Assembly: GCF_001904615.1 (NCBI RefSeq)
Contig: NZ_MRBY01000013.1
Coordinates: 47,948 to 89,577, forward strand
DNA: 41,630 nucleotides
From: [Limnothrix rosea] IAM M-220
GTDB lineage: Bacteria > Cyanobacteriota > Cyanobacteriia > Cyanobacteriales > MRBY01
Direction: 5' to 3'
The notes beneath the pieces are model-generated. The model did no database searches, was not told where the DNA came from, and saw only the letters and a list, made by a program, of their open reading frames with translations. Of the stretch, positions 1,248-9,633 are shown in pieces. Made by a program: the position numbers and the translations under genes. Numbering within the stretch: position 1 is the stretch's first letter; every line of letters begins with the position of its first letter.

Positions 1248-2012
1248 TTAACCCCCTCCCCCAACGGTGCTAGAGGCGGCAAGGGGCGGAATGGTTAGCA
1301 CAGTTCCGGGCTTAAGTTTACGGGGATTGAGTAGCTTATTTTCATCGGCAATAATCCGCCATAAATGGGGGTCTCCATATTCCTCTTCGGAGATGCTGCT
1401 CAGGGTTTCACCGCGTTTGACAATGCGAACTGGATCGTCAACGGGATTGAGTTTTTTATCGGCTAGATCGGCATCTGTCCATGCCTGAAATTCACAATTG
1501 AGTTTTGCTCGGACAGGTGTACCATCTGCCCAGAAGTGGGTTAACTCTTTTTTTACGGACTTAACAAAGCAGCTATCAAAAACAAGACCTTTATCGTCAC
1601 TAAAGTTGCCCCAATAAATTTTGCAGAGGGGAGGACGTTTCGGATCGCCACTTTTGGGGATAGAGGGCACTGTTAGCTCAACAATTTTTTTGGTGTATTT
1701 CTGCACATTCTCCGGCGGAATTTCGCCCACAGAAATATCGATGGGTGAACCAAATAAAGAAACAGGGCGCGGGAAGGAGTTGCGTAATAGTTTGGGAGAA
1801 TGGGTGTAAAGAGTCGTATCGTAAAACAGTTCTAGGCTGAGGGTATCGGGGGAAGAGCTACCCTGTACGAGGTTGCCTTTACGGTTTACATCCCAACCGC
1901 CATAGTCAAAGCTGAGGCTCTGGGGATTAAAAAAGACATAGATGGCATTGGTGCTTAGGAAGTTGCCTTTTATATCGGTTTCGGGGATGATCCTCAGTTT
2001 TGCTAACGCCAT
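1248..2012 (-). CDS. Baseplate / tube-initiator protein with C-terminal LysM domain (Afp7-like)
   Basis: This 254-residue protein has a C-terminal LysM module at about residues 195-245, beginning RIVKRGETLSSI and ending near PGTVLTIPPL. The rest is a beta-rich region with motifs such as FNPQSLSFDYGG near residue 30. In eCIS and phage baseplates, gp53/Afp7-type LysM proteins join the hub to the tube or baseplate wedges, and position next to the gpD hub is the usual order. The tail is VGGGG. The ATG at 2012 lies inside the last codons of the preceding gene (10-bp overlap), which suggests translational coupling. LysM here is a structural domain; nothing indicates cell-wall hydrolysis. Confidence 0.8.
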   Translation of the reverse strand: MALAKLRIIPETDIKGNFLSTNAIYVFFNPQSLSFDYGGWDVNRKGNLVQGSSSPDTLSLELFYDTTLYTHSPKLLRNSFPRPVSLFGSPIDISVGEIPPENVQKYTKKIVELTVPSIPKSGDPKRPPLCKIYWGNFSDDKGLVFDSCFVKSVKKELTHFWADGTPVRAKLNCEFQAWTDADLADKKLNPVDDPVRIVKRGETLSSISEEEYGDPHLWRIIADENKLLNPRKLKPGTVLTIPPLAASSTVGGGG

Positions 2013-3631
2013 CTGCCTTGCCCCCTTCTTTCGCGTTCAATGACCATTTTGCGACGGAGTTTGCGTTCAACTTGGTTGGCGATCGCCTGAATATCAATAG
2101 GTGGGTTCGGTTGCTGTGTAGATGGTAGTGGTGGAGCGTGAAAACTCTCGACGATAGGGGTGGCGATCGCCTGAATATTTGGCTGGGCTGTCGGTGCTTG
2201 TGGTGGTTTGGGAATAGAGGATTGTTGGATGCTTTGAGCAGGGTTCCCTGTTACTGCATGGTTTAGGGGCAAAGCCGATTGATCGCTATTGCTCTGTTGC
2301 GTCAGTGACAAGGGCTGCACTGGTGTGGAGGTCTTAACGGGGATATCCGGTAATGGAGGTGACGGCACGAGGGGTTGTACCAGCGGTATGGTTTGCCGGT
2401 TGTGGTGTGGAGAACGCACTTGGACTGTCGGTAAATCCGATTGCTGTTGACGACGTTGTAAGAGTTGCTCTAGGCGGGTTTTAACAATGGGAAGTGGTTC
2501 TGTTTTGGCTTGTGGAGTATCGGTATTTGCTGGCGGGGTTACGGGTTGTGCCATGACTAGGGGAAGCTCGGTGGGTTGATTTGGTGCTGCTAAATTTTCT
2601 GTCTGGTTAATCTCAGGGCTTTCAAGAACAATTTTTGTCTCGTTTGCATTCTTCACAGCATCCGAATGGGGCGATCGCCGCTGTTCTGATGAATCTGTAT
2701 TTTGAGACAGCGTTAAGGCTTGGGTAATATTTTGATCGCGAGAAGTCGACGGTTGATGGAAAACGGTGATACTTTGGCTTTCATCGGCTGTTTCGTTTAT
2801 TTCGTGCAAACTAACGGCTACTGAATTTGAACTGTCCGGCGATCGCCCTTGTACTTCTGGGATAGTATTTTGAATTAGCGTTAAATCTGGCGTTGTTGCA
2901 TTAGGTGGAGAAACGTCAACTTGATTGGTGACAATGGCAGTTTGTGGAACACTATCATTGGTGACAGAAGGCGATCGCCGCATGTCCGGAGTAACATTTT
3001 CTACCTGAACCAATTGTTCTGTCTGTGTCTTCTCTGCAACCTCACTCGGATCCTTTAGACTCACTGTGGGCAATGGCAACTCAGACGGTGTTAGAGCTTG
3101 AGGCGATCTAGTTTCAGAGGTAACAACGGGTGCGCTCATCTCCTCTTGAAACGGTGATAATTCTTGCGGGAGAGCCGCATAATGCTCAGATAATGGGCGA
3201 TCGCCTACTGATTTAACCGAAGACTCAATACTGGCAGAACTGCCACTGGGATCAATGCGCCGCTGAATCACCAAATCTCCCACAGTATTGCCAGAAGAGA
3301 CAGGCGATCGCCCAGACTGATTCACCACAGGAACAGACAGATCATTCGGTTGTTCCCCATGCCCACGATTCACAACTTGTTGAGCCTGAACGGCCGCACT
3401 ACTCTCGGTTTTGTCAGATAGATCTCGCCGTTGTTGTACCAAGACAATCGGCACAGTATGCCCGTGGACTGCTTGAAACTTACCCCACCGCTGGAACTGC
3501 TGCTCCACTAGCGAAAAACGTGTCAAAAACCGATCCGTGCGGTTAATCAACACTTGCCCCATATTTTGCCGATTTAAAGGCTGTTGGAGACGTTCGACAA
3601 ACCGCTGACTTAGACCCTGCTGCCAATTCAT
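2003..3631 (-). CDS. Long Pro/Gln/Ser-rich eCIS-cluster protein of unknown function
   Basis: This 542-residue protein has two short ordered-looking ends and a long low-complexity middle. Residues 1-70 (MNWQQGLSQRFVERLQQPLN, then RTDRFLTRFSLVEQQFQRWG) and the basic C-terminus (VERKLRRKMVIERERRGQGR) look helical and conserved. About residues 80-500 are rich in Pro, Gln, Ser, Thr and Asn, with few hydrophobic clusters, so probably disordered. The motif R-S-P recurs at least six times, four times encoded by a HIP1 site read in one frame. It is embedded between tube and LysM genes in the operon. It may be a linker or assembly scaffold in the baseplate; that is inference. I do not recognise a named domain. 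Confidence 0.7.
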   Translation of the reverse strand: MNWQQGLSQRFVERLQQPLNRQNMGQVLINRTDRFLTRFSLVEQQFQRWGKFQAVHGHTVPIVLVQQRRDLSDKTESSAAVQAQQVVNRGHGEQPNDLSVPVVNQSGRSPVSSGNTVGDLVIQRRIDPSGSSASIESSVKSVGDRPLSEHYAALPQELSPFQEEMSAPVVTSETRSPQALTPSELPLPTVSLKDPSEVAEKTQTEQLVQVENVTPDMRRSPSVTNDSVPQTAIVTNQVDVSPPNATTPDLTLIQNTIPEVQGRSPDSSNSVAVSLHEINETADESQSITVFHQPSTSRDQNITQALTLSQNTDSSEQRRSPHSDAVKNANETKIVLESPEINQTENLAAPNQPTELPLVMAQPVTPPANTDTPQAKTEPLPIVKTRLEQLLQRRQQQSDLPTVQVRSPHHNRQTIPLVQPLVPSPPLPDIPVKTSTPVQPLSLTQQSNSDQSALPLNHAVTGNPAQSIQQSSIPKPPQAPTAQPNIQAIATPIVESFHAPPLPSTQQPNPPIDIQAIANQVERKLRRKMVIERERRGQGRWR

Positions 3632-3640
3632 AATTTCTCC

Positions 3641-4195
3641 CTACAACCCAAGACTTAATGACGGGAATTTCGTTAAACCTTGATGGGTTAACGTAATTTT
3701 TTCCACTGCCACTTCATCAGACCCTGCATTTAAACCCGGCCCCTCCCAACCAATGGGATATGCCATCTTAAACATCCAGTACATCGGCGGAATCGGCAAT
3801 CGCTTCGCAGGAATCGGCAATCGCTTCGCATTAAGCATCAAAATCGTGCCATTCATCGGCATCACAATGCCTCGACTCGTTGCCTCAAACCACCACCAAA
3901 AAAAATCTACATTCACTAAACCCCGCGACAAGGTAATATCACTCGCGCTGGTGCGGGTCGGAAACTTATGCGTAAAGCCATTGACACCTCCCTCCGCATA
4001 CTCTTCCGTTTCAATACTGCTACTGAGTCCCCCCACTTCACTAAAACCACCAATCACAACTCCTCCCACCTCCACCAAAAAATTATGAACAAGGTACGGA
4101 TCATGACCGAGCTGGCTGGCTGCCGACCCACTCAACAGAGCCGCCTTTAAAGCTGCTTTTAACGCCACACTCGATCCGATACCAATGCCGCCCAT
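3641..4195 (-). CDS. Tail tube protein, T4 gp19-like (second tube paralogue)
   Basis: This 184-residue protein is a tail-tube subunit of the T4 gp19 / Afp1-Afp5 family, which stacks as hexameric rings inside the sheath. The core begins near residue 32 with DPYLVHNFLVEVGG and GGFSEVGGL, then ITLSRGLVN. It ends with EVAVEKITLTHQGL, the typical tube C-terminus. It differs from the other tube (5020-5466) in an N-terminal extension of about 30 residues, rich in Ala/Leu/Lys (ALKAALKAALL), and an in-frame 7-residue duplication AKRLPIP-AKRLPIP. GGAG lies 11 bases upstream of the ATG. It is probably the tube-initiator or baseplate-proximal tube paralogue, judged from its position beside the LysM and hub genes. 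Confidence 0.85.
   Translation of the reverse strand: MGGIGIGSSVALKAALKAALLSGSAASQLGHDPYLVHNFLVEVGGVVIGGFSEVGGLSSSIETEEYAEGGVNGFTHKFPTRTSASDITLSRGLVNVDFFWWWFEATSRGIVMPMNGTILMLNAKRLPIPAKRLPIPPMYWMFKMAYPIGWEGPGLNAGSDEVAVEKITLTHQGLTKFPSLSLGL
3789..3830. repeat. 21-bp perfect tandem duplication inside the tube gene
   Basis: The 21-bp unit (positions 3789-3809) is repeated exactly at 3810-3830. It adds seven residues (AKRLPIP) in frame to the 184-residue tube protein. Perfect identity suggests a recent slippage or duplication event. Confidence 0.9.
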
Positions 4196-4284: not shown

Positions 4285-4319
4285 TGATGTCTGATGTCTG
4301 ATGTCTGATGTCTAATATC
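4285..4319. repeat. 7-bp tandem repeat (TGATGTC), four units plus one variant
   Basis: TGATGTC occurs four times head to tail (4285-4312), followed by TAATATC. It lies in the 127-bp spacer between the second tube gene and the gpE'-like frame, ending just past that frame's stop. It is a heptamer repeat of the same general family as those at 1-62 and 6641-6902. Confidence 0.9.
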
Positions 4320-4322
4320 TGG

Positions 4323-4490
4323 CTACTGTTCACCGTTAATCCGTTGATTAATACTGGCGATTTGCGCTACCCAGTCCTGCCGCTCTCGGTGCTCCAGACC
4401 CATAATTCGGTCGTAGTCCCAATGGAAGTGATAAGCCAAATAGGCGATCTCTTCCTTTAGGCGATCTAGGGGGTAGCGTGTTACTCCCCC
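4323..4490 (-). CDS. gpE'-like tail-assembly extension (DUF6760-like), no start codon, probably made by -1 frameshift
   Basis: This frame encodes about 54 residues beginning VTRYPLDRLKEEIAYLAYHF, then HWDYDRIMGLEHRERQDW and ending NQRINGEQ. The pattern resembles the short eCIS-associated family I know as DUF6760. It also resembles phage P2 gpE', which shares an F-H-W near the start and a later W in a helical segment. The frame is open only back to a TGA at 4511-4509. Between that stop and the conserved region there is no ATG, GTG, TTG or ATN codon. The first possible start (TTG at 4439) would delete 15 conserved residues. It is in the -1 frame relative to the upstream gene and overlaps its last codons. 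Phage gpE/gpE' genes are expressed this way, so I propose a frameshift fusion protein. Confidence 0.65.
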   Translation of the reverse strand, partial: GGVTRYPLDRLKEEIAYLAYHFHWDYDRIMGLEHRERQDWVAQIASINQRINGEQ

Positions 4491-4493
4491 ACT
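4481..4493 (-). promoter_or_regulatory. Candidate -1 ribosomal frameshift site (G5 run before stop)
   Basis: On the minus strand the gpE-like gene ends GTG GGG GAG TAA. A GGG-decoding tRNA can slip back one base on GGGGG and still pair fully with GGG. The ribosome would then read GGA GTA ACA CGC into the downstream frame and avoid the stop. It is not a perfect X-XXY-YYZ heptamer, because the next codon re-pairs poorly. The function is inferred from frame geometry and the missing start codon. Confidence 0.45.
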
Positions 4494-4843
4494 GGCACTG
4501 TCTCCACTTCAAATTCCCCTTGGCAATGGGGACAGGCAACTCGTAAGCGGCTATGGCCATTTTGGTTAATGCGCTGATAGAGATCTTGCAAATAGAGCAA
4601 ATCCCCAGAAAATAACCCCTCAATTATTTGAGTATTAATTTGATCCAGAGTACCGAGACGTGTAATGACCCGTGAAAGCAGAATAATCACGAGATAACCG
4701 GGATTTCGCTGTACTCGTGGGTCGCGCATGGGCATAATTTCATCGTAGGCAGTCGCTAAACGCATCACACCTTCTCGATGGCGATCGCCCTCTGAATCTA
4801 GATAGCCTTGGGGTAAAACGAAGGCAAACTCTGTCTGCTGCAT
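4481..4843 (-). CDS. Phage gpE/gp41-like tail assembly protein of the injection system
   Basis: This 120-residue protein begins MQQTEFAFVLPQGYLDSEG, continues HREGVMRLATAYDEI and NPGYLVIILLSRVITRLG, then IIEGLFSGDLLYLQDLYQRI. It ends with a CPHC motif in an acidic tail. Order and pattern resemble the tail-assembly chaperones of P2/Mu-type phages (gpE, gp41), which lie just after the tube gene, as here. I chose the ATG at 4843 because the conserved region starts there; the frame stays open to 4933 but that stretch is Lys/Asn-rich and unlike the family. AGGG lies very close to the ATG. The CxxC pair might bind zinc with unseen partners. A gp26-like baseplate role is the alternative annotation. 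Confidence 0.65.
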   Translation of the reverse strand: MQQTEFAFVLPQGYLDSEGDRHREGVMRLATAYDEIMPMRDPRVQRNPGYLVIILLSRVITRLGTLDQINTQIIEGLFSGDLLYLQDLYQRINQNGHSRLRVACPHCQGEFEVETVPVGE

Positions 4844-5019: not shown

Positions 5020-5466
5020 TTAAGCCTTCTTAAACTCAATGCCTTCATAAACAAGCTCTAAAGATTCGATCGCAAATTCATCGGCGGTCGCATTCATATC
5101 AGGTCCCGTCCAAGTCGTTGGCCAACAGTCAGAAAGATTCCAGCGCATAATTTCATCCCCAAGGTCATCGGTCAGCACAATAGAAAGGTTACGGCGAGGA
5201 ATATTGCCTTTAAAGACATCGTTATGCCACTCCCACATTTCACTGTTGTTTGTCATACCCCGTTTGAGGGTGATATTCCCCTTCGAATTTAAACCGGGAA
5301 TTTGACGCATCCCTAGACTGGCATCAGTTCCTTCACGATAAGTTCCAGCGGCACGGGTCAGGGATAAGCCGCTACATTCTTGAAAGCCGGCGTGGACAAT
5401 GTTGTCCCATTCGACCCAAAAGTTATAGCTAGCGAAGGGATCATGGACATTACTTAGGGTTGGCAT
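5020..5466 (-). CDS. Tail tube protein, T4 gp19-like (main tube)
   Basis: This 148-residue protein has standard tube-subunit length and pattern. It begins with DPFASYNFWVEWDN, then AGFQECSGLSL near residue 30, IPGLNSKGNITLKRG near 60, and ends in the beta-hairpin EFAIESLELVYEGIEF. Proteins of this type polymerise as hexameric rings to form the inner tube expelled on sheath contraction. A good ribosome site (AGGAG, eight bases before the ATG) fits high expression. The gene follows the two sheath genes, the usual order. It lacks the N-terminal Ala-rich extension and the AKRLPIP insertion of its paralogue at 3641-4195, so it is the likelier main tube subunit. Confidence 0.9.
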   Translation of the reverse strand: MPTLSNVHDPFASYNFWVEWDNIVHAGFQECSGLSLTRAAGTYREGTDASLGMRQIPGLNSKGNITLKRGMTNNSEMWEWHNDVFKGNIPRRNLSIVLTDDLGDEIMRWNLSDCWPTTWTGPDMNATADEFAIESLELVYEGIEFKKA

Positions 5467-5544: not shown

Positions 5545-6639
5545 TTAATTTACAGTCACCCCATTTTCGCCGTGGACAAGGGTTAGGTGAATAAATTCGT
5601 TAGGGATGGTGGGTGCAAGCCCAATTTCGGCAATGACTTGCCCTTGGTCGATGGTGGCACTGGTATTGGTAACGGCATCACAGCGGACAAAGTAGGCTTC
5701 GTCGGTGGTTACCCCTTGGAGTGCTCCTTGGTTCCAAAGGGTTTCGCAGTAGTAGGACAGTTCCCGTTGAATACGCAGCCAGAGGGCAATATTGTTTTCT
5801 TCAAAGGTAATATCTGCCAGCTCGCGATCGCACCACCGTTTAAATTGGATAAATAGTCGCTGCACACTGATGTAAAGCCAGTTTGAATCGGTGCTAATGG
5901 TGCGTCCTCCCCAAATCCGCATTCCTCGTCCGGCAAAGGCTCGGATACAGTTAATGGCTGGGCGATCGCCTGTGTTCAGCATTCCCTGTTGGGCTGGGGT
6001 AAAGAGCTGAGAGAGATCCAAGACACCTGCGAGGGCAATATTCGCGGGAGTGCCATGCACACCGACGTGACGATCATTTTGGGTGAAAACCCCAGCAACA
6101 TGACCACAGGGTGGGACGAGGCGATCGCCAAATTCTGTTTTGAGCCAAGGGGCATAAACGGCAGCGCGACGACCTTTTAAGTAATGCCGTTGAGCATCGA
6201 TATCCGATAAGGCATCTAAAATCGCGAGGCGATCGCCCATCCTGTCGCAATGGTCTATCACCATTTGCTGAAGTTGAACCGCTTGGGGATGCAACGCCAC
6301 ATCAGGTACACAGAGCAAATCAAAGTTTTCGATCAATTCTGTTTGCTCTAGACCCTCTCGCAATGCTTGAAAGCCTTTGTCCCGCAGCGGCACGACGTAG
6401 CAAATTTCACCGCCGTTTTCAAAAAAACCCCGAATTACATCCCCAAGAAAGCTATCGGCATTCGTTTGGAAGAGCTGCTCAAATTGTGTCCAGAGCGTTA
6501 AGCGTTTTGCCTCCCATGAGCCATCTCTCGCGGTAGCAATACCGAGAAAAGCGGGAATGCCCGAAAGCAATGCTTCCGTCGGGGTGGGCGCAGAAAAATC
6601 AAGCGTAACGCCCGGAATCTTGAAATCAAAACCTTGCAT
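5545..6639 (-). CDS. Contractile tail sheath protein, shorter paralogue
   Basis: This 364-residue protein matches the sheath family at both ends. The N-terminus reads FKIPGVTLDFSAPTPTEA and ends in the region PAFLGIATA. FFENGGEICYVVPL lies near residue 70. IRAFAGRGMRIWGGRTIS near residue 235 and the closing APTIPNEFIHLTLVHGE are the C-terminal sheath core. It lacks the 100-residue variable insertion of the larger sheath and the usual SPGVYVEE start. Two or three sheath paralogues per locus are normal in eCIS (Afp2-4). No Shine-Dalgarno is visible before its ATG; the leader is made of short repeats, so translation may be weak or coupled. Confidence 0.88.
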   Translation of the reverse strand: MQGFDFKIPGVTLDFSAPTPTEALLSGIPAFLGIATARDGSWEAKRLTLWTQFEQLFQTNADSFLGDVIRGFFENGGEICYVVPLRDKGFQALREGLEQTELIENFDLLCVPDVALHPQAVQLQQMVIDHCDRMGDRLAILDALSDIDAQRHYLKGRRAAVYAPWLKTEFGDRLVPPCGHVAGVFTQNDRHVGVHGTPANIALAGVLDLSQLFTPAQQGMLNTGDRPAINCIRAFAGRGMRIWGGRTISTDSNWLYISVQRLFIQFKRWCDRELADITFEENNIALWLRIQRELSYYCETLWNQGALQGVTTDEAYFVRCDAVTNTSATIDQGQVIAEIGLAPTIPNEFIHLTLVHGENGVTVN

Positions 6640-6640
6640 A

Positions 6641-6750
6641 GACAGGTATCAGGTATCAGTGAACAGTTATCAGTGAACAGGTATCAGGGAACAGGTATCA
6701 GTGGACAGGTATCAGTGAACAGTTATCAGGGAACAGGTATCAGGGAACAA
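6641..6750. repeat. Short tandem repeat array, left arm (CAGGTATCAGTGAA variants)
   Basis: About 110 bp are built from GAACAGGTATCAG and GAACAGTTATCAG units, with GGGAACAG and GGACAG variants. The array ends two bases before the start codon of the shorter sheath gene, so it forms that gene's leader. Read on the opposite strand, it is the same family as the array at 6852-6902, so the two arms can base-pair. Confidence 0.9.
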
Positions 6751-6851: not shown

Positions 6852-6902
6852 TACTGATAACTGATAACTGATAACTGATAACTGTCCACTGATAACTGAT
6901 TA
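6852..6902. repeat. Short tandem repeat array, right arm (ACTGATA heptamers)
   Basis: TAACTGA heptamers run four to five times in a row, then GTCCACTGATAACTGAT. The array overlaps the stop codon of the larger sheath gene. Its reverse complement contains CAGTGGACAGTTATCAG, close to CAGTGGACAGGTATCAG in the left arm. About 100 bp of ordinary sequence (6751-6851) separate the arms. Confidence 0.9.
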
Positions 6903-8303
6903 ACTGCCAGACCATTGGCTAATGCGGAAGATGACAAATTCAGCAGGCTTCACCACCGCCAAACCGATTTCCGTTACCACTTGCCCCGCATCACGGACTT
7001 CGGGGGGGTTGGTTTCTGAATCACATTTCACGTAAAAAGCCTGATCCGGTGTGCTGCCAAACAAACGACCATTACTCCATTCCATCGTGAGAAAGGCGGT
7101 TACATTGCGGGAAATTTTTGCCCAAAGTTCTGAGGTATTGGGCTCGAAAACAGTCCACTGTGTACCCTCATCAATGGATTCTTTAATGTAGTTAAAATGC
7201 CGCCGAATGTTGATGTATTTAAATTCGCCGTTGGCATTGCCCCCAAGGGTGCGCGCCCCCCAGATGCGGATGTTGCCGTTGAGCTGGCGAATGCAGTTGA
7301 TACCGTCGGGGTTTAAGCCGTCTTGTCTGGCTTTACTGATGGCATATTTCAAGCCGAGTGCGCCTAAAATACTTTCATTGGCTGGGGCTTTGTGGACACC
7401 GCGCTGGCTATCTACCCTGGCATAAACACCGGCGATCGCCCCACTGGGTGGCACAAAAATATTGCTATCGGAACTAGGGTCATAGACCTGAATCCAAGGG
7501 AAATATAAGGCGGCGTAATCTGAATTAAAAGGTTTGAGATCCGCAACGAGAGAAGTACTGCTGAGATTTTGATCTTCTTGACTATCTAATATGGCAAAGC
7601 GATCGCCCATCTTCGAGCAGTGGTCGGCAATATCATCGCGGAGGTCGAGACTACCGGGCGCGAGGACTAGGGTAATTTCGTCGATCGCCTCAAAATCTTC
7701 TAGGACACCTGCAATCTTACTTTGACCAGAAATCCAAACAATATAGCAACGCGTGCCGCCATTTCTGAAAAAGCCATATACCGAATGGGCAAGGGTATTT
7801 TGGCCGGCAGTCTCGCCCGTGGGAGCCATAAAGTCCCCAAAATATTTTTTAAATTCGGTGAAATTAGTGCATAGTTTGATTTCCCCTTCCGTGGCATAGG
7901 TTGAGGTGCTGGCAGCGCTGACTTCAGTGTCGTAATAGCCAGTGATCGCTGCGCCGGAAGCTACTGCTGTCTCGAATTTGACGGTGACAGTTTGATCAGT
8001 GTCATTGTTCGTGACGCTTTCAACGGCAACTGCTTCGCCATCGACAAAAAAACCATAATTACCGCCAGACACAGGATATAAAGCCGCAAAAACATAATTC
8101 TTTTTTGTGCCGCCATCCCCCGTACCGATCGCCACAGGAGCCGCGCTAGTGCCAATGGTTTGGGTGGTAGTGCCACTGCTTTGGTAGGCCACGGGATTAA
8201 TTGTGCCAATAAAGGCGGCGATACTGGTTCCGACTCCGGCGATCGGGGCAGAACCGGAGGGCACTTCCTCAACGTAAACACCCGGTGAAAGATAACTCGG
8301 CAT
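6900..8303 (-). CDS. Contractile tail sheath protein, main paralogue
   Basis: This 467-residue protein begins with the sheath signature SYLSPGVYVEEVPSG, followed by IAGVGTSIAAFIGT. A variable insertion at about residues 45-150 probably forms the outer protruding domain. VYGFFRNGGTRCYIVWI near residue 180, INCIRQLNGNIRIWGART near 345 and RRHFNYIKESIDEGTQW near 380 make up the conserved C-terminal core, which ends FVIFRISQWSGS. A GTG at 8312 is in frame. I chose the ATG at 8303 because AAGGAG at 8317-8312 lies eight bases upstream and would overlap a GTG start. Sheath subunits assemble around the tube and drive injection by contracting. Confidence 0.92.
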   Translation of the reverse strand: MPSYLSPGVYVEEVPSGSAPIAGVGTSIAAFIGTINPVAYQSSGTTTQTIGTSAAPVAIGTGDGGTKKNYVFAALYPVSGGNYGFFVDGEAVAVESVTNNDTDQTVTVKFETAVASGAAITGYYDTEVSAASTSTYATEGEIKLCTNFTEFKKYFGDFMAPTGETAGQNTLAHSVYGFFRNGGTRCYIVWISGQSKIAGVLEDFEAIDEITLVLAPGSLDLRDDIADHCSKMGDRFAILDSQEDQNLSSTSLVADLKPFNSDYAALYFPWIQVYDPSSDSNIFVPPSGAIAGVYARVDSQRGVHKAPANESILGALGLKYAISKARQDGLNPDGINCIRQLNGNIRIWGARTLGGNANGEFKYINIRRHFNYIKESIDEGTQWTVFEPNTSELWAKISRNVTAFLTMEWSNGRLFGSTPDQAFYVKCDSETNPPEVRDAGQVVTEIGLAVVKPAEFVIFRISQWSGS

Positions 8304-8311
8304 GGATATCA

Positions 8312-8317
8312 CTCCTT
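8312..8317 (-). promoter_or_regulatory. Ribosome binding site AAGGAG for the main sheath gene
   Basis: AAGGAG on the minus strand, eight bases before ATG 8303. It decides the start against the in-frame GTG at 8312. It contrasts with the shorter sheath gene, which has no such site. Confidence 0.7.
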
Positions 8318-9045: not shown

Positions 9046-9633
9046 TTAGTGTTTCTCCCCTAGGACCATACCGACTAATGGCGCTTCCGACGCTTCCAAC
9101 TCCAGATCAACGGCGATCGTCACAGTACAGTGCAACACCACCTTCGGCCTTGTGCCATCACGGCCACCCATCGCCTGCCAAAATTCCCCAAAACTATTGA
9201 GATTACTCGGACGCAAACTCACCATACGGATTTGAACCGGCTGATCCTTCAAACTATCCTGCCAATAGACCTCCGGGATACGCCGAAATCGCAACAATAT
9301 CCGCGTTAATTCACCGAGCAACTGGTGCTCCGTTTGAATATCCTCATCATTTTGAGGCCATGCCGTCACCAAATAGGAACAATCAACCCTCGCAGGGGGA
9401 CGCTGTTTTACCGCCCGGCCATTATCCTGCCGCTCCCAACCGCCAACCACATTACGCAACTCCAAATTTTCCTGTACGTCATACAAAAAAAAGTTGAGGG
9501 CTGGCTTCTGGGAAATGGCCCCATGAAAAGGCGTTTCAAAACTAATATGAACTGCCGTTGAAGACGAAGGAACATCCGCCGGAAATTCCCGCTGAATTAG
9601 AGTTTCTAAAGTGGCATCTAAATCTTCAAGCAT
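9046..9633 (-). CDS. DUF4255 protein, Pvc16/Afp16 N-terminal type (tube-cap / terminator)
   Basis: This 195-residue protein shows the DUF4255 pattern. It starts with a helical MLEDLDATLETLIQREF, then VHISFETP near residue 28 and KPALNFFLYDVQENLELRN near 43. CSYLVTAWP follows near 85. In Photorhabdus and Serratia particles, proteins of this type cap the tube and sheath distal to the baseplate. It is the first gene of the leftward operon visible here. AGGA sits four bases before the ATG, a tight spacing. The family call is from pattern; the cap role comes from the family. Confidence 0.8.
   Translation of the reverse strand: MLEDLDATLETLIQREFPADVPSSSTAVHISFETPFHGAISQKPALNFFLYDVQENLELRNVVGGWERQDNGRAVKQRPPARVDCSYLVTAWPQNDEDIQTEHQLLGELTRILLRFRRIPEVYWQDSLKDQPVQIRMVSLRPSNLNSFGEFWQAMGGRDGTRPKVVLHCTVTIAVDLELEASEAPLVGMVLGEKH

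Follow-up and report, generated by a model that had tools for sequence, protein, structure and literature searches.

A probable programmed −1 frameshift joins a gpE-like protein to a DUF6760 domain in a cyanobacterial contractile injection system operon

The DNA analysed here, referred to throughout as the window, is a stretch of 41,630 nucleotides from [Limnothrix rosea] IAM M-220 (contig NZ_MRBY01000013.1, positions 47,948 to 89,577), which carries on its minus strand an operon for a contractile injection system. Within this operon the end of a gene for a gpE-like protein, a likely tail assembly chaperone, overlaps a second, start-less reading frame that encodes a DUF6760 domain. The features of this junction are as follows.

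4481..4843, minus strand: gpE-like protein, likely tail assembly chaperone, in the 0 frame, 120 residues (predicted short product); an open reading frame (ORF) with a match to PHROG family phrog_508 and a structure model that resembles YqbN and the HK97 chaperone
4484..4490, minus strand: putative slip heptamer G GGG GAG (0-frame codons GGG GAG), adjoining the TAA stop; from sequence and conservation
4481..4483, minus strand: 0-frame stop codon TAA, end of the predicted short form; from sequence
4323..4484, minus strand: start-less −1 frame, the putative DUF6760/gpE'-like extension (53 residues after the shift), stop included; from PF20546 and a P2 gpE' profile match
4444..4477, minus strand: site of the downstream hairpin of relatives (GCTACC...GGTAGC), degenerate here; conserved in relatives and not stable in the window

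The gpE-like ORF starts with ATG at 4843 and stops with TAA at 4483-4481. Its final codons are GTG (4492-4490), GGG (4489-4487) and GAG (4486-4484), with the GGGGG run of the window at 4490-4486, and the two frames overlap on G GGG GAG TAA. The second frame lies exactly in −1 relative to the 120-residue gene; it follows TGA at 4511-4509, reads SGDSASGGVTRYPLDRL...NGEQ and stops at 4325-4323. Re-examination of the sequence showed that an earlier, sequence-only reading had these coordinates, the position of the GGGGG run and the description of the frames right, as it had the absence of a start: no ATG, GTG, TTG, CTG or ATN precedes the conserved region in the −1 frame of the window (locus L007). 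Tandem slippage on G GGG GAG would retain the full gpE-like chain (...PVGE) and continue V-T-R-YPLD. The two-length outcome foreseen earlier stands, and the fusion, then put at about 170 residues, is now predicted at exactly 120 + 53 = 173. On the comparisons set out below, we think it very probable that the two frames form one gene, read by programmed −1 ribosomal frameshifting to give a 120-residue chaperone and a 173-residue fusion, the frameshift itself being very likely and the chaperone role of the gpE-like protein likely.

Relatives were found by DUF6760 protein similarity only, the slip site and hairpin having no part in the selection, and the peptide pattern used for the named loci begins at VA inside the 3' arm of the hairpin and runs downstream. 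Matches to DUF6760 were present in 16 of the 60 genomes nearest to that of the window and in 32 of 386 genomes of its phylum (35 matches, with five rows lacking a locus; G247, G272 and the second of G204 are covered nowhere else), and in phylum samples for the actinobacteria (18 of 246 genomes), Chloroflexi (17 of 201), betaproteobacteria (8 of 299, five of the 8 being excluded for their different arrangement) and Methanoperedens (10 of 196). The named loci are the best 80 of 569 confirmed stretches. They come from cyanobacteria, Chloroflexi, Actinobacteria, Myxococcota, Nitrospirae, Gemmatimonadetes, Caballeronia, Ramlibacter, Geobacter and Candidatus Uabimicrobium, from Bacillota and Clostridia metagenome-assembled genomes (MAGs), and from the archaea Candidatus Methanoperedens and Methanosarcinales. 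L025 (short, no upstream ORF) and L171 and L175-L179 (weak, unrelated or of T4_baseplate type) were excluded before counting, and L136, L137, L156, L172 and L180 were left out as repeats of earlier loci; after exclusion of the seven, 171 loci gave 159 distinct junctions.

With the nearest upstream gpE-like domain, recognised by profile, as the reference, DUF6760 lies in the −1 frame in 155 of the 159 distinct loci. The figure is 145 of 159 if the best-scoring domain is used instead, because several loci have a second gpE-like domain further upstream. The four exceptions are L020, whose two domains share one in-frame gene; L042, with a broken gpE-like gene; L147, where the gpE-like domain is in the same frame with an intervening stop; and L149, which has no gpE-like match. 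The profile count supersedes an earlier one made by regular expression, in which 155 of 177 anchored loci had the expected frame, 2 had the other, 1 was fused and 19 went unrecognised. In L042, from a Brocadiaceae MAG, the gpE-like gene changes frame and the G run and DUF6760 are intact, a case of assembly error or decay. More than one gpE-like domain occurs within 900 nucleotides upstream in 26 of the 159 loci, which are mostly cyanobacterial and look as if they had a second gpE-like gene (they include L013-L021, L024, L093, L113-L115, L118, L124-L127, L129, L131, L132 and L134); in L042 and L117 the multiple matches are pieces in two frames.

The lack of a start codon extends from the window to most of its relatives, as the sequence-only reading required: ATG, GTG and TTG are absent from the 45 nucleotides before the conserved domain in 103 of the 139 loci that have GGGGG at the place described below, the window included. 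In 66 of the 69 loci with a later stop, codon −9 still begins the dipeptide RT, which is what translation of the −1 frame at this point would lead one to expect. The protein itself is invariant at Y, P, E, A, H, W, R and other positions in two alignments.

Counted from the conserved Tyr codon, the GGGGG run occupies −15 to −11 in 139 of the 159 distinct loci. Of these, 122 are of the Tyr-Pro type and 17, of which the actinobacterial sample contributes 9 and the Chloroflexota sample 8, are without the Tyr-Pro motif. Conservation of the slip run, anticipated from the window, is confirmed by this fixed position and by codon choice, the 0-frame Gly codon being GGG in 122 of 122 Tyr-Pro-type loci, a codon used for 198 of the 863 other glycines of these genes; an additional GGGGG in the preceding 280 nucleotides occurs in 17 of the 122. 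The 0-frame codon after GGG is GAA in 59 loci, GAG in 53, GGG in 18 and GGA in 9, and in 131 of the 139 the 0-frame stop comes two or three codons after GGG. A strict X XXY YYZ heptamer is formed in 27, those with GGG or GGA as the A-site codon. Shine-Dalgarno-like stretches upstream of the run fall most often at offsets −15, −19 and −20, on a glance that takes no account of coding constraint.

Among the 20 loci without GGGGG at the fixed place, L076, L174 and L145 have displaced or longer runs, and L020 is the in-frame fusion. The haloarchaeal loci carry GGGAAAT (L185, L186, L188, L189) or GGGAAAC (L187) further upstream, and other variants are GGGGAAA in L183, GGGAAAG in L173, GGGAAAA in L087 and GGAAAAG in L013; GGGAAAT, GGGAAAG, GGGAAAA, GGGGAAA and GGAAAAG would all stay shiftable. 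The site in L173, G GGA AAG, is the one that we take to be the slip site of phage lambda. The gpE-like proteins of L185-L189 have long C-terminal tails. In L072 the run is down to GGGG, ATGATG precedes the domain and the hairpin is kept, which looks like a switch from frameshifting to re-initiation.

The sequence-only reading made no mention of a downstream hairpin, which is widespread among the relatives. It has the form GCTACC.CTC../..GAG.GGTAGC and can begin 6 nucleotides after the heptamer in most of the 122 Tyr-Pro-type loci, all six core pairs being intact in 114. The full six-pair core is also present in 10 of 10 methanogen-type archaeal loci checked (L183 among them lies outside the 122) and in the actinobacterial named loci L041 and L085. 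In 71 diverse rows of the alignment 85.4% of cells are paired, a share that drops to 33-62% on sliding the partner by 1-3 columns; two-sided changes number 28 cells against 13.7 +/- 2.9 in shuffles (reached in 0 of 500), the covariation score is 0.150 against 0.114 +/- 0.007 (0 of 500), and each of the four rows with TAT has A in the partnering column (UA:4). Over the 139 loci, Watson-Crick cells of the inner helix number 288, against 253.9 +/- 5.8 (0 of 2000) after 3' arms have been swapped between loci of similar G+C. Codon choice at the hairpin is skewed in the direction that its pairing requires: Tyr is TAC in 118 of 122 loci (282 of 675 elsewhere in the same genes), Val is GTA in 107 of 114 (188 of 1154) and Ile is ATA in 5 of 8 (155 of 1279). 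Compared with synonymous resamples of 45 nucleotides, stability has a mean z of −3.35, with 104 of the 122 loci below −2. The haloarchaeal loci L185-L189 lack the GCTACC hairpin and have 1-2 of the 6 core pairs. The 3' arm commonly reads GAGGAGGTAGC (in L092, for example) and contains an in-frame Shine-Dalgarno-like AGGAGGT; no conserved start after it was noticed, and no test for one was made. In Rfam, nothing reaches the gathering score in the window, and a search of six loci at E up to 0.5 gave three matches, all in L023, far under the gathering scores and off the signal.

The DUF6760 frame of the window matches PF20546, a known but uncharacterised family, with E 3.3e-12 and 46.7 bits against a cut-off of 27. 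The resemblance of the short frame to P2 gpE' that had been proposed holds up in profile-profile comparison with hhalign (94.3% probability, E 1e-7, in the region around FHW). In addition, hmmscan gives PF06528 matches in 14 of 26 DUF6760 members at E up to 1 (best 0.0011), phrog_10636 is matched by both the DUF6760 and the P2 gpE' families, and L020 scores 16.1 bits against PF06528, a weak single-sequence score under the 23-bit cut-off. A search by sequence found no solved structure for DUF6760.

The gpE-like protein matches phrog_508, 'tail assembly chaperone', in 23 of 23 sampled relatives at E up to 0.1 (best 4.9e-9; E 0.0036 for the window protein), and PF10109 in 1 of 23 (E 0.02). Its structure model has a mean pLDDT (predicted local distance difference test) of 77. 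The nearest neighbours of the model are YqbN (Z 6.8; 90 residues, root-mean-square deviation 4.2), the HK97 chaperone (Z 6.1; 84 residues, 4.0) and a phage-inducible chromosomal island (PICI)-like element protein (Z 5.0), the next falling to 2.1; Z values below 8 may reflect a common arrangement. Foldseek places the model against 2ob9 with E 0.17. T4-type baseplate hub assembly proteins are among its six matches in BFVD at E up to 0.001, with E 1.9e-6 for the one so named. DNA polymerase theta, the sole solved-structure match by sequence (E 0.86), was rejected as a relative. The two domains also occur in single frames. L020 is a natural in-frame fusion of the gpE-like and DUF6760 domains. In L176 and L179 a single frame encodes a T4_baseplate-like N-terminal part followed by a DUF6760-like C-terminal tail; the scores are under the Pfam cut-offs, and the proteins perhaps represent a related hub chaperone. 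These single-frame joins imply that evolution has also made the fusion without a shift.

Sequence comparison provides the frame relation, the slip site, the missing starts, the hairpin with its compensatory changes and the gpE' homology; the occurrence and efficiency of the shift, the chaperone role and its partners are what we infer. Most ribosomes would read the gpE-like frame to its stop and release the 120-residue chaperone. In a fraction of them, tRNA-Gly on GGG and tRNA-Glu on GAG would slip back by one base to GGG and GGA, the Glu anticodon re-pairing on GGA via a G-U pair, and these ribosomes, now in the −1 frame, would run past the stop and extend the chain by the 53-residue DUF6760/gpE'-like domain to give the 173-residue fusion. 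The hairpin located 6 nucleotides downstream is a probable stimulator of the shift in most Tyr-Pro-type relatives. The expectation by analogy from lambda gpG/gpGT and P2 gpE/gpE+E' is that the short form holds an internal assembly partner, that the fusion recruits the tube protein, and that the ratio of the two matters for tube assembly.

Several observations weigh against frameshifting, or against parts of it. The heptamer G GGG GAR departs from the textbook X XXY YYZ pattern and needs a G-U pair. The part of a study of phage frameshift annotations used here (PMC10885494) names GGGGGAA the 'fivetwo' slip motif, counts roughly a thousand annotated sites with it and makes the same G-U argument, and so supports the view that a G GGG GAA heptamer can work. 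The canonical downstream stem-loop found in the Tyr-Pro-type relatives is absent from the window, where the helix is not stable (+5.8 kcal/mol, z +1.1), and is weak (−1.9) in L008, of the same genus; the comparison points to loss of the hairpin in the window's own genus. It is also absent from the 17 non-Tyr-Pro loci, which have 1-3 of the 6 core pairs and keep the G run; these (L139-L144, L152-L154 and L163-L170) mostly have GTG or another start near the stop, and may work differently. Two of five covariation measures, the coarser ones, do not beat shuffles (234 of 500 and 275 of 500). RNAalifold prefers a GGGGG:CCCC pairing when the slip site is included; with the slip columns removed it yields no prediction for the full set of 71 rows, giving a structure only with ribosum scoring or after removal of L007 and L008. 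The G side of the GGGGG:CCCC pairing never varies, a ribosome on the slip site would melt it, and sequence by sequence the hairpin is the more stable in 61 of 71. The loci share ancestry, and their counts are not independent events. Finally, the first-frame protein, called gpE-like by the sequence-only reading, keeps that description by its position and its PHROG chaperone match; its profile does not match that of P2 gpE (0.1% in hhalign).

A different account of the junction is termination-reinitiation, in which ribosomes restart at an overlapping ATGA or GTGA, or at a non-standard start, and DUF6760 is a separate protein. It draws on the 36 of 139 slip-site loci with ATG, GTG or TTG between slip site and domain, which comprise 21 of the 122 Tyr-Pro-type and 15 of the 17 hairpin-less non-Tyr-Pro loci, as well as on the 88 of 139 that have some candidate start once CTG and ATN are counted. 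Start codons near the domain are likewise found where GGGGG is missing from the fixed place, in L072 with its reduced run and ATGATG and in L146-L151 (ATG, or GTG in L147), the ATG overlapping the stop in the actinobacterial L146, L148, L150 and L151. A separate 'DUF6760 family protein' is moreover annotated in four of seven plasmid stretches. Nevertheless, the 103 loci noted above, among them the window, have no ATG, GTG or TTG to restart on, the window lacking CTG and ATN too, and 9 of the 12 ATG or GTG codons at codon −9 coincide with a TGA stop formed there. A start codon would require neither a fixed GGGGG nor a hairpin, and the G run touches the would-be start, probably too close to serve as a ribosome site. 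We consider re-initiation improbable as the explanation of the junction.

The presence of a homopolymer run also brings to mind transcriptional slippage, by which mixed mRNAs would arise, some with an altered number of G encoding the fusion. The run is short in most loci, however, several heptamers are mixed (GGGAAAT, GGAAAAG), and a hairpin at fixed spacing under synonymous constraint fits slippage by the ribosome, so that we regard this origin as very unlikely. That the −1 frame is a decaying or mis-sequenced gene which has lost its start might be read from the start-less window and from the single in-frame gene of L020, but it is already contradicted by conservation, with the same frame relation in 155 of 159 loci and invariant residues, and is hardly credible. 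Programmed −1 frameshifting is the reading that we retain.

The closest known arrangement is that of phage P2 gpE and gpE+E' (AF063097; Phage_TAC_7 PF10109 and Phage_P2_GpE PF06528). As in P2, the pair lies directly after the tube gene, the second frame is −1 and overlaps the end of the first with a slip site at the overlap (here in 155 and 139 of 159 loci, respectively), and the extension is related to DUF6760 by profile-profile comparison and PF06528 matches. The systems differ in that the first-frame proteins are not detectably homologous (120 residues here, 91 in P2), that the pair here belongs to a cell-encoded injection system, and that the next gene is the tape measure gene T in P2 and a second tube-like gene here, followed by a 542-residue ORF. 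With lambda gpG/gpGT the junction would share the making of one chaperone in a short and a −1 extended form, as the part of PMC5009743 used here describes it; the proteins were not compared. The SEA-PHAGES frameshifts at GGGGGAA (PMC10885494, likewise in part) have the same heptamer and G-U re-pairing argument; they are in phages and this one is cellular, and the likeness is in the motif, the proteins not having been compared. The HK97 tail assembly chaperone and Bacillus YqbN (2ob9, 3klu) are the best solved neighbours, at 8% identity. The T4-type baseplate hub assembly proteins (T4_baseplate PF12322) resemble the gpE-like protein in the BFVD matches and the single-frame joins of L176 and L179, at scores under Pfam cut-offs; they differ in being larger and needing no frameshift.

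Around the junction the operon encodes the following proteins.

5020..5466, minus strand: tail tube protein (Phage_T4_gp19, Pfam), just upstream of the gpE-like gene
3641..4195, minus strand: second tube-like protein (Phage_T4_gp19, Pfam), just downstream of the DUF6760 frame
5545..6639, minus strand: sheath protein (PF04984, PF17482)
6900..8312, minus strand: another sheath protein (PF04984, PF17482)
1248..2012, minus strand: contractile injection system (CIS) tube/LysM protein (PF19266, PF01476)
9046..9633, minus strand: Pvc16 N-terminal domain protein (PF14065)

The minus-strand operon of the window also has a GPD hub protein (Pfam), and the adjoining contig sequence encodes a spike (Phage_base_V), gp25, Baseplate_J, Tail_P2_I and a CIS spike tip (CIS_spike_tip). 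Sheath, tube, baseplate, spike and spike tip are found together in one cluster, as in an extracellular contractile injection system, and no head or packaging gene was found among the ORFs scanned with Pfam, which are not all those of the contig. Between the second tube gene and the LysM protein, the 542-residue ORF at 2003-3631 has no Pfam match to back an assignment as a tape measure. It is rich in P, Q, S and T and is a candidate for an unstructured partner or ruler. For Streptomyces CIS, the part of PMC10066040 used here reports the lack of a typical tape measure (Afp14) and the presence of genes for proteins of unknown function. Tandem repeats with a period of 7 or 14 (TGATGTC among them) lie between operon genes at 4285-4321, 9-60, 6650-6749 and 6853-6906; the first of these directly follows the stop codon of the DUF6760 frame, and copies similar to it occur elsewhere in the genome.

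Thirty-four plasmid records have a DUF6760 match, and seven stretches were examined. No features are annotated there in L202 and L204, L200 has the DUF6760 frame without a gene, and L201, L203, L205 and L206 have the separate protein, its start called on ATT in L203 and on ATA in L205; none of the seven is annotated with a joined gene. In IMG/VR, nine contigs have DUF6760 relatives, all nine in the −1 relation and eight without ATG, GTG or TTG before the domain. Two of them, L210 and L211, have identical junctions, and in L211 the ORFs, judged by eye, follow the gene order of the window, with Pvc16-like, sheath, tube, LysM and baseplate proteins. A DNA pattern for the junction, which matches 80 of the 159 known loci, found five IMG/VR contigs, all among the nine from the protein search. 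Phage records gave no match in tblastn at E up to 1 with the window DUF6760, the window gpE-like protein or the L092 DUF6760 as query.

Among the matches listed from open-licence PubMed Central papers (title and start of abstract), none reports a frameshift in a contractile injection system, and the term DUF6760 is absent from the open-licence PubMed Central literature searched. The part of the GeneTack survey used here (PMC3711429) has a phage tail assembly chaperone cluster related to HK97 and names no injection system. Phage-type chaperone frameshifting is known; what appears new, on the sequence evidence, is its retention in cellular injection systems with a slip-plus-hairpin signal of its own and a first-frame protein that is not detectably P2 gpE.

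The frameshift reading would give DUF6760 a likely role and explain its odd annotation, with ATT and ATA starts and the missing gene of L200, since gene annotation tends to split or miss a two-length gene of this kind. We see roughly even chances that a single ancient cis-acting module (GGGGG[AG], a 6-nucleotide spacer and GCTACC...GGTAGC) has accompanied contractile injection systems in many bacterial phyla and in methanogen-type archaea, and that the ratio of short to long chaperone controls tube assembly or length without a recognised tape measure. If true, this would be among the few conserved programmed frameshifts in cellular genes, neither phage nor transposon, and a rare archaeal one; the archaeal frameshifts named in the part of PMC8211752 used here are those of a fucosidase gene and several haloviruses and a suggested magnesium chelatase case, and the present loci add cellular and archaeal candidates to that short list. 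As delivery devices, both natural and engineered, contractile injection systems are a subject of study, and a chaperone made in two lengths would offer a direct handle on tube assembly, via recoding of the slip site.

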